Shown piece after piece: positions 4,801-16,330 of a stretch of DNA of 55,987 nucleotides. This DNA comes from Paracoccaceae bacterium (GTDB taxonomy: Bacteria > Pseudomonadota > Alphaproteobacteria > Rhodobacterales > Rhodobacteraceae): positions 1 to 55,987 of the forward strand of contig JAIXSA010000100.1 in assembly GCA_027484915.1 (NCBI GenBank), written 5' to 3'. Position numbers and translations under genes: made by a program. Under the pieces are notes generated by a model that saw only the letters and a program-made list of their open reading frames with translations, did not search any database and was not told the DNA's origin. Within the stretch, counting starts at the first letter, position 1; each line of letters begins with the position of its first letter.

Positions 4801-6522
4801 ATGACGGGCCAGATTGCCGCACGGGTCGGGCTTGCCCTGACAGGCGCGCTGGGCGGGGCCGCGATCTGGGCGGTCCTTGAGGCGGCGGACCGCGCCTGGC
4901 TTGCCGACTTCCCGACGCTGGCGCTGTTCGTCTTCGTGGCCACGGGCTTTGGTGCGGTGATGGCATTGGCCGGACCGATCGGCCTGACCAGCGCGGTGCC
5001 AAGGGGCCTGGGCCTGGGGCTGGTCGTCGGAGCGCTGACCTGGCTGATGGCGCTGCGGTTCGAGACGGTGGATCAGGTCCTGTTTGCGGCGATCCCGGTC
5101 CTGGCGATCTTCGCGCTGGCGACGCTGCCGCTGCCTTTCCTGATCGCCGGGGTCCGCAGCCGGTGGACCGATTATCCGGTCCTCTTCCTGGAGGCCTGGT
5201 CCATCGTGTTGCGTGTTGCGGCGGCGGGGGCCTTCACCGGGCTGGTCTGGCTGGTGATCTTCCTGTCGGACGAACTGCTGCAGATCGTTGGCATCGGCAT
5301 CATCGGTAACGTGCTGGCGCAGGAGGGGCTCGCCCTTGCACTGGGCGGCGCGATCTTCGGGCTGGGCATGGCGGTCATCCATGACCTTGCCGAGCTTCTG
5401 TCGCCCTATGTGGTCCTGCGGGTGTTCCGGCTGTTCCTGCCGGTGGTGCTGGCGGTGATGGCGGTCTTTCTGGTCGCGCTGCCGTTCAGGGGGCTGGATG
5501 GTCTGGCCGGTGGGCTGTCACCGGCGACGCTGCTTTTGACGATGGTGGGCGGGGGGATCGCGCTGGTCTCGATCGCCATCGACCAGGCGGACGCGGATGC
5601 GACGAAAAGCCCGCTTCTGCTTCGCTGCACGCAGGGCTTGGCGCTGATCCTTCCCGTGGTGGCGGGGCTTGCGCTGTGGGCGGTTTGGTTGCGGGTGGCG
5701 GATCGCGGCTGGTCGCCCGAGCGGCTGTTCGTCGTTCTGGTGGCGGGAACAGGGCTGGTCTACGGGCTGGTCTATGCCGTTTCGGTCCTGCTGGGCCGGG
5801 AATGGATGGAGCGCATCCGGCAGGGCAACATCCGGATCGCGCTTGCGGTCCTGGTGCTGGCGGCGATGTGGTTGACCCCGGTGCTGAACGCAGAACGCAT
5901 TTCGGCCGCAAGCCAGCTGGCGCGGCTCGAGACCGTGGGCGTCGCGGCGCTGGATCCCGCTGCGCTGCGGTCGTGGGGCAAGCCCGGGGCGGCAGCGCTG
6001 GCGGAACTGGAGGCGCGGGCGAAAGAGCCTGGGCAGGAGGCGCTGGCGGCTGCCCTGGCGGGAGAGACAGTGGACCAGGCGGACGCCAGGCCTGCGTTGG
6101 CGGCCGAGCTTGCCGCGCTGATGCCGGTGCAGCCGGCCACGGCCACGGGGATGCGCGAGGTGATCCTGGGCGCGGCGGAGGAGTACCTTCTGCAGGACTG
6201 GCTGCAGGTCTGCCGGGTGAAGCTGGAAAACGGGCAACCGGGCTGCCTGATGGTGGTGGCGGACCTTTTGCCGCTGCGGCCGGGCGAGGAGGCGATGCTC
6301 TTCCTGCAGCGCGGGACGGACTACATCGAGGTCAGCGGGCTTTATCTGGATGACAGCGGGATGCTGGTCTGGCGAAGTGCCACGCGACCCGATGGCTCTT
6401 ATCTGACGCCCGAGGCGGCCTCGCGCCTGTTGCGGCAGTACCAGACCGCTCCACCGCCGCTGACGGGGGCAGAGCTGAACCAGCTGGGCACGGGCGAGGA
6501 GGCGCTGCTGTTTCTGCCATGA
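4801..6522 (+). CDS. DUF4153 domain-containing membrane protein
   Basis: A 573-residue integral membrane protein with about ten to eleven predicted hydrophobic helices in its first 370 residues (for example LGLGLVVGALTWLMAL and LFLPVVLAVMAVFLVALPF), followed by a soluble C-terminal region of about 200 residues. The pattern matches the DUF4153/DUF4173 family, whose role is not known. The C-terminal part contains a Cys pair (VCRVKLENGQPGCLM) that could form a disulfide if it faces the periplasm. A GGGAG ribosome-binding site precedes the ATG. The H-NOX-like gene begins about 60 bases downstream on the same strand, so the genes may be co-transcribed. Confidence 0.8.
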   Translation: MTGQIAARVGLALTGALGGAAIWAVLEAADRAWLADFPTLALFVFVATGFGAVMALAGPIGLTSAVPRGLGLGLVVGALTWLMALRFETVDQVLFAAIPVLAIFALATLPLPFLIAGVRSRWTDYPVLFLEAWSIVLRVAAAGAFTGLVWLVIFLSDELLQIVGIGIIGNVLAQEGLALALGGAIFGLGMAVIHDLAELLSPYVVLRVFRLFLPVVLAVMAVFLVALPFRGLDGLAGGLSPATLLLTMVGGGIALVSIAIDQADADATKSPLLLRCTQGLALILPVVAGLALWAVWLRVADRGWSPERLFVVLVAGTGLVYGLVYAVSVLLGREWMERIRQGNIRIALAVLVLAAMWLTPVLNAERISAASQLARLETVGVAALDPAALRSWGKPGAAALAELEARAKEPGQEALAAALAGETVDQADARPALAAELAALMPVQPATATGMREVILGAAEEYLLQDWLQVCRVKLENGQPGCLMVVADLLPLRPGEEAMLFLQRGTDYIEVSGLYLDDSGMLVWRSATRPDGSYLTPEAASRLLRQYQTAPPPLTGAELNQLGTGEEALLFLP

Positions 6523-6584
6523 GGAGAAAAGGTTGTTAACCGATGCGCGTTAGCCTCTTCCCCGAAACGGCATTGGGGTCGGAC

Positions 6585-7160
6585 ATGGATGCGCTGTTGC
6601 TGCGGTCCTTGCAAAGCTACGTGATCGACACGTTCGGCGGGGCGCGCTGGCAGAAGGTCTGCCTGGGCGCCGATCTGGGCGTGATGAGCTTTGAGCCGAT
6701 GCTGCGCTATGAGCCCGGCACCGCCGACCGCATCGCGGAGGTTGCTGCCGACGTCCTGGGCCGCCCGTTCGACGCAATCTGGGAGGATGTGGGCATCCAT
6801 CTGGTGACCAACCCCGAGCGCGAGGGGATCCGACGGCTTTTGCGCTTTGGCGGGGTGACATTCGCAGATTTCCTGTACTCGCTGGAAGAAATGCCGGGCC
6901 GGGCGCGGTTGGCGATGCCGGACCTGGAGCTGCCGGAGGTGACCCTGATTGACCTGGGCGAAGACCGGTTCGAGCTGCGCTGCCAGTCGCACCTGCGCGC
7001 GACGCAACGGGTGCTGGTCGGGCTTCTGACCGCGATGGCCGACGATTATGGCGCGCTTTGCCTGATCGAGGCGCAGGCCGATTATCGCACGTCGATCTCG
7101 ATCCTAGATCGCCGCCATGCCGCCGCTCGGCGGTTCGACCTTGCGCTGCCGGGGAAATAG
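6585..7160 (+). CDS. H-NOX-like (haem NO-binding fold) protein lacking the haem-ligand His
   Basis: About 191 residues with the H-NOX fold. The start MDALLLRSLQSYVIDTFG aligns with the N-terminal helix of bacterial H-NOX, so I chose the ATG at 6585; an ATG at 6543 would add 14 residues. The segment FLYSLEEMPGRARLAMPDL aligns without gaps with the helix that carries the proximal histidine (His102 in the Caldanaerobacter protein), and here that position is Pro (residue 118 counted from 6543). No other His lies in the helix. The haem-propionate YxSxR motif is also altered, to CQSHL. So the protein keeps the fold but probably does not bind haem in the usual way. It lies 2 bases upstream of an HNOBA-GGDEF cyclase, the usual partner of H-NOX. 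Confidence 0.8.
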   Translation: MDALLLRSLQSYVIDTFGGARWQKVCLGADLGVMSFEPMLRYEPGTADRIAEVAADVLGRPFDAIWEDVGIHLVTNPEREGIRRLLRFGGVTFADFLYSLEEMPGRARLAMPDLELPEVTLIDLGEDRFELRCQSHLRATQRVLVGLLTAMADDYGALCLIEAQADYRTSISILDRRHAAARRFDLALPGK

Positions 7161-7162
7161 GG

Positions 7163-8164
7163 ATGCAGACCTTTCGCAGCGAGGATCGGATCGAGCTGGA
7201 CAGCGCCGCTGCCGCCCAGTTCATGCCGATGCACCTGTTGCTGGATGGCGGGGGAAGGGTGATCAGCCTTGGGCCGACGCTGGCACGGGTGCTGCAGGCG
7301 GACGCGGTGCCAGGTGCCCGGTTCGAGGATCTGTTCGAGGTCCGCTCGCCCGGCGGGGCGGTCACCATCGAACAGGTGCTGGCGCGGGGCGGCAATCGGT
7401 TCCGGCTTCTGCCGCGCAAGGGATTGCGCATCGGGCTGCGGGGCCTGGGTCAGCGTCTGCCGGGATCGGGTCGCATCCTGCTGAACCTGACTTTCGGGAT
7501 CGACCTGATCAAGGCGGTCCGGGCCTTGTCGCTCACCGATGCCGATTTCGCCGCGACTGACCTGGCGATGGAGCTTCTTTACATGGCGGAGGCCAATGCC
7601 GCCGTCACGCATGAACTTCGGGGCCTGAACCTGCGGCTGGAAGGCGCGCGGATGGCGGCCGAGGAAGAGGCGATGACCGACTCCTTGACCGGCTTGCGCA
7701 ACCGTCGCGCGGCCGATCTGGTGCTGGAGCGGCTGTGTGCCGCGCGGGCGGGGTTCGGGCTTCTGCAGATGGACCTGGACTACTTCAAGGCGGTAAACGA
7801 CACCCTGGGCCATGCCGCGGGCGACTTCGTCCTTGGCAGCGTCGGGCGCATCCTGCGCGAGCAACTGCGGGCCGAGGATTGCGCGGCGCGCGTCGGGGGC
7901 GACGAGTTCGTCGTGATCCTGGCCGGACGGATCGAACCGAACATGCTGCAGTCCATTGCCGAGCGGATCATCGCGCGCATCAGCCAGCCGATGGAATTCG
8001 AGGGGCAGGTCTGCCAGGTGTCTGCCAGCATCGGGATCGTCCGGTCGCTGGACCTTGCGGTGCCTGAACCTGTTCAACTGCTCGCCGCCGCGGACCGTGC
8101 GCTTTACGCGGCCAAGCACGCCGGCCGGGGCCGGGCGGTGCTGCTGGTCACGCGCGGAGAGTAG
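7163..8164 (+). CDS. HNOBA-like sensor / GGDEF diguanylate cyclase
   Basis: A 333-residue protein. The N-terminal part (about residues 18-130: FMPMHLLLDGGGRVISLGPT... and FEDLFEVRSP) resembles the HNOBA domain, the PAS-like H-NOX-associated domain. A helical linker (about 140-170, ANAAVTHELRGLNLRLEGAR) leads into a GGDEF domain starting at MTDSLTGLRNRR. The active site GGDEF is intact, metal-binding DLDYFKAVND is present, and RAED five residues before GGDEF fits the RxxD inhibitory site. It should make c-di-GMP from two GTP with product inhibition. The start follows the H-NOX stop with a GGGG-type ribosome-binding site, so the two are co-translated partners. Its 3' end overlaps the convergent ABC ATPase gene by 17 bases. 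Confidence 0.88.
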   Translation: MQTFRSEDRIELDSAAAAQFMPMHLLLDGGGRVISLGPTLARVLQADAVPGARFEDLFEVRSPGGAVTIEQVLARGGNRFRLLPRKGLRIGLRGLGQRLPGSGRILLNLTFGIDLIKAVRALSLTDADFAATDLAMELLYMAEANAAVTHELRGLNLRLEGARMAAEEEAMTDSLTGLRNRRAADLVLERLCAARAGFGLLQMDLDYFKAVNDTLGHAAGDFVLGSVGRILREQLRAEDCAARVGGDEFVVILAGRIEPNMLQSIAERIIARISQPMEFEGQVCQVSASIGIVRSLDLAVPEPVQLLAAADRALYAAKHAGRGRAVLLVTRGE

Positions 8165-12328: not shown

Positions 12329-13402
12329 TCAGGGGCCGGGGACGGGCACCGGGGGAGGCAGCGAGAAGACCGGGACAAAGCTTGCCGGGGCCAGCGAGTC
12401 CTGCATTACGCCATCGCCTGCGGTGGCGGGGGTCACGGTCCAGACCGGGGGCCCGGCATGGGGCGTATTCAGCCGATCCTCCAGCGCGCGGACGGCCATC
12501 TCGATGGAGAGGCGGCCCTGCAGGACGGGCGAATCCGTGGGCGCTGCCAGGATGCGGCCGCGCACGACGCCGCGATAGACGGCGTGGCTGAGATAGGTCG
12601 AGACGATGGCGATCTTACCTTCCAGCCCGCGGGCACGCAGGATCGGGACGGCGGCTTCGGCCATCGGGCCGCTGCCGACGAGATAGTCGATATCGGGCAT
12701 GGCTTCGAGCACCTCTTCGACGAGCAGAACCTGTTCCTCGGTGCCGGTATCGCCGAACCGGGTCATTACGATTTCGGCGGAACTGTCGGCCAGGGCCGCA
12801 CGGAAGCCCGCTTCGACGAAGGTGACCCAGCCCGCGCCCTGCGGTCCGGGGAACCAGGCGACACGGACGGGGGGGCTGCCCTTCGGGTGGCGTTCGGCCA
12901 GAAACCGCCCGGCGGCGGCGCCCATTTCGGTCCAGGGGACGCTGGCCTTGGCGGTGATGCCACTGTCGTCGATGTCGTTGACGGCCGCGATGACGGGTTT
13001 CAGGCGGGCGATCCGTTCCACCTCGGCGGTCAGTCCGGCATAGGACACGCTGCCCAGGATCACTGCGTCGAATTCGTCGCTGGCGCAGCCCTTCAACTGG
13101 TCGATCTGGCGGTTCAGGTTGGGGTAGCCCCCGGCCTCGAACACGTCGAAGGCCACGCCCAGGCGGCGGGCCTCTTCGACCATGCCGTAGTTCACCGACA
13201 GCCAATAGGCATCCTTCAGGTGCGGGTAGAGGACGCAGAAGCGCCAGGGCCGGGCGGCGTGGTCCAGCGGCGTGTAGGCCAGCGGCACGGCGGCGCTTGC
13301 GTCGTCAAAGGGGATGGCGCGCGCTTCCAGTTGCCAGATCTCGGCCAGGGCGGGATCGGCAAGGCCCGCCACCAGGATCGCCGCCGCAACGGCCTTGCGC
13401 AT
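12329..13402 (-). CDS. torT: TMAO-binding sensor protein TorT
   Basis: A 357-residue periplasmic protein of the sugar-binding type I fold with an N-terminal signal peptide (cut near ADPALA|E). Its sequence (PWRFCVLYPHLKDAYWLSVNYGM, NRQIDQLKGC, FDAVILGSVSYAGL, VNDIDDSGITAKASVPW) matches TorT, which binds TMAO in the periplasm and presents it to the sensor kinase TorS. GGGGAG lies five bases before the ATG at 13402, which fixes the start; the open frame upstream is antisense to torS. It is divergent from torS with only 60 bases between starts, so both probably share one control region. Confidence 0.9.
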   Translation of the reverse strand: MRKAVAAAILVAGLADPALAEIWQLEARAIPFDDASAAVPLAYTPLDHAARPWRFCVLYPHLKDAYWLSVNYGMVEEARRLGVAFDVFEAGGYPNLNRQIDQLKGCASDEFDAVILGSVSYAGLTAEVERIARLKPVIAAVNDIDDSGITAKASVPWTEMGAAAGRFLAERHPKGSPPVRVAWFPGPQGAGWVTFVEAGFRAALADSSAEIVMTRFGDTGTEEQVLLVEEVLEAMPDIDYLVGSGPMAEAAVPILRARGLEGKIAIVSTYLSHAVYRGVVRGRILAAPTDSPVLQGRLSIEMAVRALEDRLNTPHAGPPVWTVTPATAGDGVMQDSLAPASFVPVFSLPPPVPVPGP

Positions 13403-13462
13403 CGTCTCTCCCCTTTCGCGGATTCGGTGGTAGCCTGCACCCGCAAACCCTGGAGGGGAGCC

Positions 13463-16310
13463 TTGCGGAACTTCGGCTACAAGTCGAGTCTTGGCGGACG
13501 GCTGCTGCTGGCGATCGGGCTGATCGTGGGCTTTCCGGCGGCGACCGGCGTGCTGGGCTGGTTCGAGCTGAAGGACGTGGCGGCAAACCAGTCGCGGGTG
13601 GTGACCGAGGCGATCCCGGCGATTTCCGAAGTGCGGGGCGTGGCCGAGGAGACAAGCCGCGTGGTGGCGGTTGCCCCCGAGCTTGCGGCGGTCACCGACG
13701 AAGCGCAGCGGGCCGAGAGGGCGGCGTTCCTGTTCGACCAGGCAAATGCGCTGCGGGCGCGGCTTCTGCGGCAGGAGGGGTTGCCGGACGATGCCCTTGC
13801 CAATGCTCTCGCGGCCGAGGCGGGCCTGCGACAGGCGCTGACCACCATCGACCGGCTGGTGCGGCAGCGGATCAGCCTGATTGCCCGCCGCGATGCCCAG
13901 CTGGCCGAAGGTCTTGCGGCGGCGGTGGAGTTGACCGAGATCGCCGACACGCTGGTGGCCAATGCCGAGATGGGGGCCTCGGCGGTGATTTCCAGCCTTT
14001 ACGGGATGGACGGGACCGACACCGCCGACCCGGAGGTCAGGCTCGACACGCTGGACAAGCTGATCGAGGTGGACCTGTTCCAGATGGGGCTGATGTTCGA
14101 GTTGCGGTCCCATGCCTCGGAAGTGGGGCTTCTGTTGAACCGGGTGGCCGGGGTGCAGACACAGGCCGACCTGCAGCTCTTGCGCGACGAATTGGCGGCA
14201 CGGGTCCGCGTGATTTCGCGGCGATTGGAGTCGGTTCAGGATCCCCGGCGGGCGGACCGGGTGCGGGTGCTGCTCAGGGTGATCGGGGCGGCCCCGGCCT
14301 CGCCACCGGAAACGGCGGCGCTGTTCGAGAACGTGGCGCAGGTGCTGGCGGTGACCGAGCGGATTGGCGGGGCCGAGACCGAGTTGCGCCGCGCGGCGCT
14401 GGAGCTGGAGACGGCTGCCTCGGCCCTGGCCGACCGGATCGAGGCGAATGCGGTACGGGCGGGCCAGTCGGCGGAACAGGCGATCCTCGCGACGCAGCGG
14501 CTGTATGCCTTCTCGGCGATGCTGGCGCTTGTGCTGTCGCTGGGGGTGCTGTGGTTCTATGTCCGGGGCAACCTGATCCGACGGCTGGACGCGCTTGCCG
14601 TGCGGATGGCGGGTCTGGCCCAGGGCGATCTGGGCGACGAGGTCCCACGGTCGGGCACCGACGAGATCGCGCAGATGGAAGGCGCGGTGGAGGTGTTTCG
14701 TCAGCAGGCCATCGCGAACCGGGAATTGGCGGCCGAGCGGGAACGCCATCTGGAGGAGTTGCGTCGGCACCGCAGCGAATTGCAGGAACTGGTGGACGAG
14801 CAGACCGAGGCCTTGCGCGGCGAGGTGGCCGCCCATGACGCGGCGCGCGACCGGGCCGAAGCGGCGGACCGGGCGAAGTCGGAATTCCTGGCGATGATGA
14901 GCCACGAGATCCGGACCCCGATGAATGGCGTCCTTGGCATGTTGCGGAACCTGCCGCGTGACGGGCTGACGCGGGTTCAGGTGGCGCGGTTGGACGCGGC
15001 GCTTGCGGCGGGCAAGGGGTTGATGGGGCTTCTGAACAGCATCCTCGACTATTCCAAGCTGGAGCAGGGCCAGACGGCCGAAGAGATCGAGGATTTCGAT
15101 CTGGGCGAGGCACTGGGGGACATCGCGCTTCTGATGGCGCCGATGGCCGAGGAGAAGGGCTTGCGGCTGGTCACCGAACTTCCCGACGCCGCACTGCCGC
15201 CCTTGCGCGGCGACATGGGCAAGTTGCGGCAGATCCTGTTCAATCTCGTGTCCAACGCGGTCAAGTTCACCGACCGGGGCGAAGTGCGGATCGCCTTGGC
15301 GTTGGCCGGACCCCCTGACGCCCATCCGCTGCGACTGCGGTTCACGGTCAGCGACACTGGCCGGGGGATTGCTCCCGAGGCGCTAGAGCGGATTTTCGAC
15401 GCCTTCCAGCAGGCCGACCCGCAGACGACGCGGACGCATGGCGGCACGGGGCTGGGGCTGACGATCAGCCGCCGGTTGGCGGGCCTGATGGGCGGCGTGC
15501 TGACGGTGGTCAGCCAGCACGGGAAGGGCGCGACCTTCACGCTGCATCTGCCCTTCGCGCGGGCGGCGCTGGTGGCGGCGCGCCCCGCCCAGGACCTGCC
15601 GGAGCTGCCACCGCTGAACGTGCTGGTGGTCGAGGATCACCCCGTCAACCAGGAGGTAGCTGCAGGATTTTTGCAGGCGATGGGCCACCGGGCGGTGATC
15701 GTGGCGACGGGCGAGGCGGCGCTGGACATGCTGGCGACGGGTGGGTTCGATGCGGTGCTGATGGACGTGAACCTGCCGGGCATCTCGGGCATCGAGACGA
15801 CGGGCCGCCTGCGCTGTCTGCCGGGGCTGGACCGGCTGCCGGTGATCGGCGTCTCGGCTCATGCCCAGCCAAGGGACATCCAGGCTTGCCGGGATGCCGG
15901 GATGGATACGGTGGTGGCCAAGCCGCTGACCCCCGAAGCGCTTGCCGCGGCTTTGCAGCGATTGTGCGGAACCGGCGTCGCGCCGGCGGTGCAGGAGACG
16001 CTGGCCGATCTGGGACCGAAGGCCACGCGCGAGCTGGTGCGACTAATGCTGGACCGGCTGCGGCCCGAGGTCGAGGCGCTGGCCGAGGCGCTGCGCCAGG
16101 GAGCCACCAGTGACATCGAGCGTCGGGCGCATCAGCTGAAGGGGGCGGTCGGGAACTTCGACCTGCCCGAACTGAGCGAGGTGCTGGCCGACCTGTCGCG
16201 CCGCGATGCCGCCCCTGATCCCGGCGCGGTTGGGGCCCTTCTGGCGGCGACTGCAGTGGCGGATCGGGCGCTGACCCGATCACTTCAGGCGCTGGACGAC
16301 CTGGCGGGGG

Positions 16311-16330
<20 letters not shown>
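13463..16330 (+). CDS. torS: TMAO sensor histidine kinase TorS (hybrid)
   Basis: A 955-residue hybrid kinase starting at a TTG (13463), chosen for the strong GGAGG six bases upstream. Domains in order: membrane helix about 13-33, a long helical periplasmic sensor region with no Cys, second membrane helix about 349-371, HAMP, coiled coil, HisKA with SHEIRTPMNG (phospho-His about 481), HATPase with N, G1 and G2 boxes (LVSNAVKFTDRG, DTGRGI, GGTGLGL), receiver with LMDVNLPG (Asp about 768), and a C-terminal Hpt domain with AHQLKG (His about 890). This four-step relay is that of TorS. It pairs with TorT (divergent) and TorR (convergent, 20-base overlap of 3' ends). Confidence 0.93.

Follow-up and report, generated by a model that had tools for sequence, protein, structure and literature searches.

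What can an H-NOX-fold protein sense when the histidine that should ligate its haem is missing, and what does it do to the diguanylate cyclase encoded beside it? Both questions are raised by a gene pair in the window, the whole 55,987-nucleotide stretch of Paracoccaceae DNA analysed here. The frame for the H-NOX-fold protein closes with a TAG stop codon at 7158-7160, and a spacer of 2 bases separates it from the ATG of the cyclase at 7163 (Table 1). The H-NOX fold is evident from the Pfam HNOB score of the protein (61.4 bits; cut-off 25.5) and from an AlphaFold model (pLDDT 82.9, pTM 0.80) whose top Foldseek match is the Nostoc H-NOX (3tf8_A; TM 0.74, E 1.0e-10). All but two of the 50 Foldseek matches listed are H-NOX proteins or beta chains of sGC (48, with 3m0b and 3nvr among them); the two others are sGC alpha chains. 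A search of the source genome with the HNOB profile at E ≤ 1 returned a single match and no second, canonical H-NOX. Two start codons were considered. At least 90% of the 149 orthologues share the Met at 6585, and at least 90% have a gap where the Met at 6543 stands, with the caveat that local alignments may miss true upstream extensions; judged by this conservation, ATG 6585 is the better start. An earlier note on this DNA had named both the H-NOX identity and the start at 6585, and both have held. Residue numbers of the H-NOX-fold protein count from the ATG at 6543.

Table 1. Coordinates of the gene pair and of its principal features in the window.
Feature	Coordinates	Strand	Remarks
H-NOX-fold gene	6585..7160	+	191 aa from ATG 6585; 205 aa if ATG 6543 is used
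Gly84, counterpart of first hinge Gly	6792..6794	+	at least 90% identical over 149 orthologues
Pro118, codon CCG, at the place of the proximal His	6894..6896	+	by alignment with Nostoc H-NOX; Pro in 121/149 orthologues, His in 6
Pro131, counterpart of the conserved H-NOX proximal Pro	6933..6935	+	by alignment
CQSHL, residues 147-151, at the place of the YxSxR haem-propionate motif	6981..6995	+	aligned on Nostoc YQSTR
Gly160, counterpart of second hinge Gly	7020..7022	+	Gly in 142/143 non-His orthologues, one gap
Diguanylate cyclase, HNOBA (PAS-like)-helix-GGDEF	7163..8164	+	Pfam GGDEF and HNOBA
HNOBA stretch of cyclase	7193..7408	+	Pfam HNOBA; profile match to sGC
Long helix, probable coiled coil, from HNOBA to GGDEF	7562..7672	+	model helix 134-170; first part of low confidence
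RxxD (RAED), motif of the inhibitory c-di-GMP site	7868..7879	+	RxxD five residues before GGDEF in 146/146 cyclases found
GGDEF active-site motif	7895..7909	+	in 146/146 cyclases found

A phmmer search of the PDB aligned residues 18-167 of the window protein with residues 4-154 of the Nostoc H-NOX. The only gap is a single residue far upstream; there is none within or near the ligand helix. In this alignment Pro118 of the window sequence SLEEMPGRARLAMPDLELP falls on the His of Nostoc NLDNLHARVGLSFPQLRPP, the ligand His105. The Pro on the ligand helix and the replacement of YxSxR by CQSHL had both been noticed from the sequence alone, and both are borne out by the alignment. A complete YxSxR motif occurs in 0/149 orthologues. 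The roles of the proximal His and of YxSxR are set out in PMC8196705. In the AlphaFold model the ligand helix is split into two pieces, residues 107-114 and 117-124, so that Pro118 lies at the start of the second piece.

A proximal His at another position, which the earlier note had allowed for, was looked for column by column in the 149 orthologues, and none is general. As judged from the alignments, no other His can serve as a general proximal ligand, because no column that is at least 90% identical is His or Cys and because the three His of the window protein, at 86, 150 and 192, are rarely shared (His in 10, 19 and 39, respectively, of the 143 orthologues without the ligand His). At two further columns His is common among these 143, in 97 at column 16 and in 99 at column 112, where the window protein has Asp16 and Tyr112; over 144 rows His is present at both columns in 68, at one only in 33 and 30, and at neither in 13. 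We rejected these positions as the ligand of the window protein, given its Asp and Tyr and given that the two His are not coupled. A Cys/zinc redox site as in Vibrio cholerae was rejected as a family trait, no Cys column reaching 90% identity.

Residues that matter for movement of the fold have been kept. The proximal Pro of H-NOX has a functional role, and the column of Pro131 is Pro in 142 of the 143 non-His orthologues (the other is a gap) and in all six that bear His. The counterparts of the two hinge glycines are similarly constant (Table 1). PMC7108781 describes the glycines as a hinge and deals with the role of the proximal Pro.

How general is the loss of the His? At E ≤ 1e-6 the profile matched 287 of 394 genomes of the family, a few of the weakest matches (e.g. 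G004, G294) being canonical H-NOX. From the 287 matching genomes we drew 120 loci: 30 from the best-scoring genomes, 60 hand-picked and 30 deliberately weak-scoring. Three were copies of rows in other sets (two Pro and one Tyr, one of the three being the window itself) and three lacked the column, which leaves 114 distinct orthologues, drawn from roughly the same number of Rhodobacteraceae genera. The residue at the His column is Pro in 90, Gln and Asn in 5 each, Ala and His in 4 each, Arg in 3, Ser in 2 and Gly in 1, a tally biased both by the way the loci were chosen and by the search profile, A1, which is itself mostly of the Pro type. The weak-scoring set, with 27 counted rows, contributes 12 Pro and 2 His. 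Over all sets, 186 aligned rows reduce to 159 distinct ones and, after three canonical H-NOX and seven fragments without the column are dropped, to the 149 orthologues of Table 1, of which 22 have a residue other than Pro or His. The Q, N, A, S, G, Y and R variants suggest that the ligand place is variable once the His has gone.

Closer to the window, the gene is present in 30 of 32 congeneric genomes, with Pro in all 30 loci; the two genomes without it are 59% and 70% complete. A contig search gave 30 relatives with Pro in 26, Tyr in one, Arg in one and His in two, both His rows being frame-split. Two of the six His-bearing orthologues, those of HTCC2083 (L030) and of a Planktotalea sp. MAG (L031), have the H-NOX frame split in two. 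A search at the level of the order matched 197 of 244 genomes; all of the genomes listed belong to the window's own family, so that no outside group was gained. Named records with Pro are those of Paracoccus denitrificans, P. ferrooxidans, P. versutus and Phaeobacter sp. G2, and Pseudorhodobacter turbinis (NZ_CP039965.1, a large replicon; L227) has Arg; the residues come from the five of six plasmid matches that were retrieved.

As a control we took the best 30 HNOB matches of the family, which are canonical H-NOX: His is present in 30/30 and YxSxR in 29/30. The pattern H-x(26-31)-YxSxR is found in those 29, their His sharing one alignment column, and the thirtieth (L058) has a His at the same spacing before YxS, with Asn instead of Arg. 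The H-NOX-fold gene itself is under purifying selection, with dN/dS values of 0.15-0.22 in all six pairs tested. At the level of sequence, the loss of the His is a conserved state of the whole family and not an error or chance. The survey of Rhodobacterales that the earlier note had called for, run here on Rhodobacteraceae, has thus turned a loss seen in one protein into one seen across a family.

The history of the loss can be given in outline. On a tree rooted on three canonical H-NOX, parsimony counts six changes between His and non-His, of which strongly supported branches force only two. If His was never regained, there were at least nine losses after weak branches are collapsed, and 18 on the full tree. 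These counts are soft because the tree is poorly resolved, with 78 of 147 inner branches open and long branches meeting.

The partner protein scores 129.2 bits against Pfam GGDEF (cut-off 23.8) and 23.8 bits against HNOBA (cut-off 23.4). Of the 25 cyclases that were aligned, 24 contain HNOBA at E ≤ 0.01, and D204, N212, D213 and the GGDEF motif are invariant over all 25. Against the PDB, the cyclase profile A2 matches the HNOBA-helix part of sGC beta1 (residues 207-368, E 4.5e-5) and alpha1 (281-446, E 6.8e-4); the sGC type of HNOBA is thus present in the window cyclase, weakly but consistently. The class III guanylyl cyclase domain is absent, and Pfam finds GGDEF instead. The model of the cyclase (pLDDT 83.5, pTM 0.53) is best matched by PAS-GGDEF proteins, with an sGC beta chain at rank 34. 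Given the HNOBA domain and the profile match to sGC, the pair reproduces the domain order of sGC (H-NOX, HNOBA, helix, cyclase) spread over two proteins and ending in a cyclase of a different type.

A cyclase of the same type adjoins the H-NOX gene on the same strand in 146 of the 149 orthologues. Its start falls anywhere from 67 bases ahead of the end of the H-NOX frame to 170 bases past it, and within 80 bases of it in 144/146. No cyclase was seen beside the three remaining orthologues. Two of them lie at the end of a contig, and the third, L031, is a MAG fragment with a split frame, for which the 2.3 kb downstream of H-NOX were covered. The proposals that an intact cyclase, with GGDEF, metal residues and RxxD, follows two bases downstream and that the two genes form a module are therefore upheld, the second over 146 loci. 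Diguanylate cyclase activity is predicted from these motifs.

A group answering this description is already in print. A 2022 review (PMC8738867) outlines a 'Group 5' of H-NOX proteins, fewer than 10% of which have the proximal His; most have Pro, there is no conserved Cys and the hinge glycines are kept. The window orthologues show the same features, with no difference in kind. Kumar & Spiro 2017 (PMC5588039) report that the H-NOX proteins of Paracoccus denitrificans and Rhodobacter sphaeroides lack the His. Because the His-less, mostly Pro state is thus already described, we regard the window protein, by homology and by its features, as one more member of Group 5. The review seeds the Group 5 network with the P. 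denitrificans H-NOX and gives the trigger of the group as unknown; it still presents the P. denitrificans pathway as an NO-bound H-NOX inhibiting the cyclase.

The P. denitrificans H-NOX is 36% identical to the window protein and aligns with it ungapped over the ligand helix. Like the window locus, HnoX/DgcA (Pden_3719/3720) is a GGDEF gene pair with Pro at the same column (record of strain HAMBI_2443). Unlike the window protein, HnoX has been studied by genetics: as PMC5588039 relates in its account of the mutants, the hnoX mutant is partly deficient in attached growth and poor in biofilm and the dgcAB mutant overproduces biofilm, on which grounds the authors suggest that H-NOX inhibits DgcA, with NO acting through H-NOX, and model HnoX as NO-responsive. 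Two other systems show an H-NOX fold without haem. The sGC alpha chain has a haem-free 'pseudo-H-NOX' whose pocket is filled by an N-terminal extension, according to PMC8196705. Like the window pair, whose H-NOX fold is probably haem-free as well, sGC combines such a fold with HNOBA, coiled coil and cyclase; in sGC each subunit is a single chain and the cyclase domain is a guanylyl cyclase, whereas the window has separate proteins and a GGDEF cyclase. In V. cholerae a haem-free H-NOX that keeps the proximal His senses redox state through a Cys/zinc site, as PMC7108781 describes. It is a precedent for an H-NOX fold working independently of haem, as proposed here; the window orthologues lack both a conserved Cys and, as a rule, the proximal His that it retains.

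The closest functional comparison is with Dinoroseobacter shibae. A 3,001-base stretch of the second contig of genome G035 is 100% identical to plasmid NC_009955.1 of D. shibae DFL 12. Its H-NOX gene lies on the minus strand (L210:2804-3385), flanked by a membrane-protein frame and by an HNOBA-GGDEF cyclase, and among the matches listed no other HNOB hit comes from that genome; the gene pair is orthologous to that of the window and has the same order. In D. shibae, NO-bound HNOX inhibits Dgc1, the product of the adjoining gene, as reported in PMC7232146 and PMC8846402. Unlike the window protein, the D. shibae HNOX retains the haem His (LHDRARL), so the only orthologous pair found with reported NO-dependent inhibition is one of the 4 in 114. 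Since this pair belongs to the His-bearing minority, the mechanism should not be transferred to the Pro majority. Judging by the alignment, the new element here is the placing of the NO-inhibited D. shibae pair in that minority; in the literature searched we found no statement of the D. shibae protein as a His-bearing exception.

Several features of the surroundings may be recorded. Upstream of the H-NOX gene, 4801-6522 encodes a 573-aa membrane-like protein that matched no Pfam family at E ≤ 1 and no NCBIfam model at E ≤ 0.01; by eye, the frame upstream of the D. shibae H-NOX resembles it. Further away, at about 12400-16330, a divergent pair appears from the translations to encode a TorT-like periplasmic binding protein and a TorS-like hybrid histidine kinase with receiver and Hpt domains. 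The sequence GTTAAC lies at 6535-6540, and many orthologues have an element containing TTAAC at a distance of about 50 bases from the conserved start Met, on its upstream side. When 134 upstream stretches, each some 110 bases long, were scanned, 69 contained TTAAC (8.5 expected from single-base shuffling), 45 contained GTTAAC and none contained TTAA-N7-TTAA. The element may be a promoter or a half site of the CtrA type. In R. capsulatus the cyclase gene rcc02629 is under CtrA control, as cited in PMC9143464.

Our preferred reading, which we consider probable with ample room for error, takes the pair as a two-protein c-di-GMP switch: the H-NOX-fold protein would act as a haem-free 'pseudo-sensor' and hold its cyclase in check through HNOBA. 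The sequences show that the H-NOX fold has been retained together with the proximal Pro and both hinge glycines, that His and YxSxR have been lost, and that the cyclase is inherited along with the H-NOX gene. The H-NOX-fold protein would bind no haem stably. By analogy with sGC, in which H-NOX, HNOBA and coiled coil work together, it would bind the HNOBA/helix part of its partner and restrain GGDEF activity. Something other than haem-bound NO would move the hinge, perhaps a partner or a different small hydrophobic molecule lodged in what was once the haem pocket; alternatively, the hinge would not move at all. Inhibition is preferred to activation because of the mutant genetics of the Pro-type P. 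denitrificans H-NOX in the part of PMC5588039 already cited, and a haem-free H-NOX has its precedent in the sGC alpha 'pseudo-H-NOX'. That precedent is imperfect: the loss of haem from sGC alpha is explained by the pocket-filling extension, and the missing His and YxSxR need not be its cause; no N-terminal extension of this kind was seen among the orthologues in local alignments. The window HNOBA score is also barely above its cut-off. The literature searched yielded no measurement of binding, haem content or activity for a protein of the Pro type.

The same conservation of hinge and proximal Pro that we ascribe to a haem-free switch could mean that a cofactor still occupies the pocket, and the authors of the P. 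denitrificans study model their Pro-type H-NOX as NO-responsive. The protein may then still be a haem-based NO sensor, with the haem held by hydrophobic contacts and perhaps another axial ligand, a His from a different position or from the cyclase, and with the NO form inhibiting the cyclase. This reading is favoured by the orthology and common gene order with the NO-inhibited D. shibae pair, by the retained fold and by the frequent His at columns 16 and 112, and we nevertheless judge it unlikely: the D. shibae protein has the very His that the window protein lacks, YxSxR has been lost, conservation reaches 90% in no column of His or Cys, and the window protein has Asp at column 16 and Tyr at column 112, with the two His uncoupled elsewhere.

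We give the same low probability to an H-NOX fold that has become a permanent, ligand-free structural partner, the signal arriving through the HNOBA domain or through the level of expression. The loss of both haem motifs, the eight kinds of residue besides His at the ligand place and the constant pairing with the cyclase would suit such a subunit, and the conserved upstream element suggests control of expression; against it, few columns of the alignment are as conserved as those of Pro131 and the hinge glycines, residues that movement depends on. A decaying relic or annotation accident, to which the split frames in two of the 149 orthologues (L030, L031) might point, is refuted by the low dN/dS in six pairs together with the conservation of the gene in nearly all congeneric genomes and, a few canonical matches aside, in most of the family, and can be dismissed.

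Extended from the window to the family, our preferred reading of a haem-free switch becomes more tentative. It is possible, though we would lean against asserting it, that the H-NOX proteins of Rhodobacteraceae linked to diguanylate cyclases are as a rule no NO sensors, the ligand having been lost many times while hinge and cyclase coupling were kept and the pocket turned to another signal, with D. shibae as a surviving exception. The source genome also encodes, outside the window (G000:C145:4593-5177; L229), one FIST-domain protein (146.1 bits). FIST is the domain of NosP, the other haem NO sensor, according to PMC8738867, and the FIST protein could, to go by this domain, sense NO where the H-NOX cannot. 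Proteins of the window type are labelled 'heme NO-binding' in two annotated records, though most members lack the haem ligand. Setting orthologous pairs that have the ligand against pairs that lack it makes the question of how Group 5 proteins sense anything a testable one.
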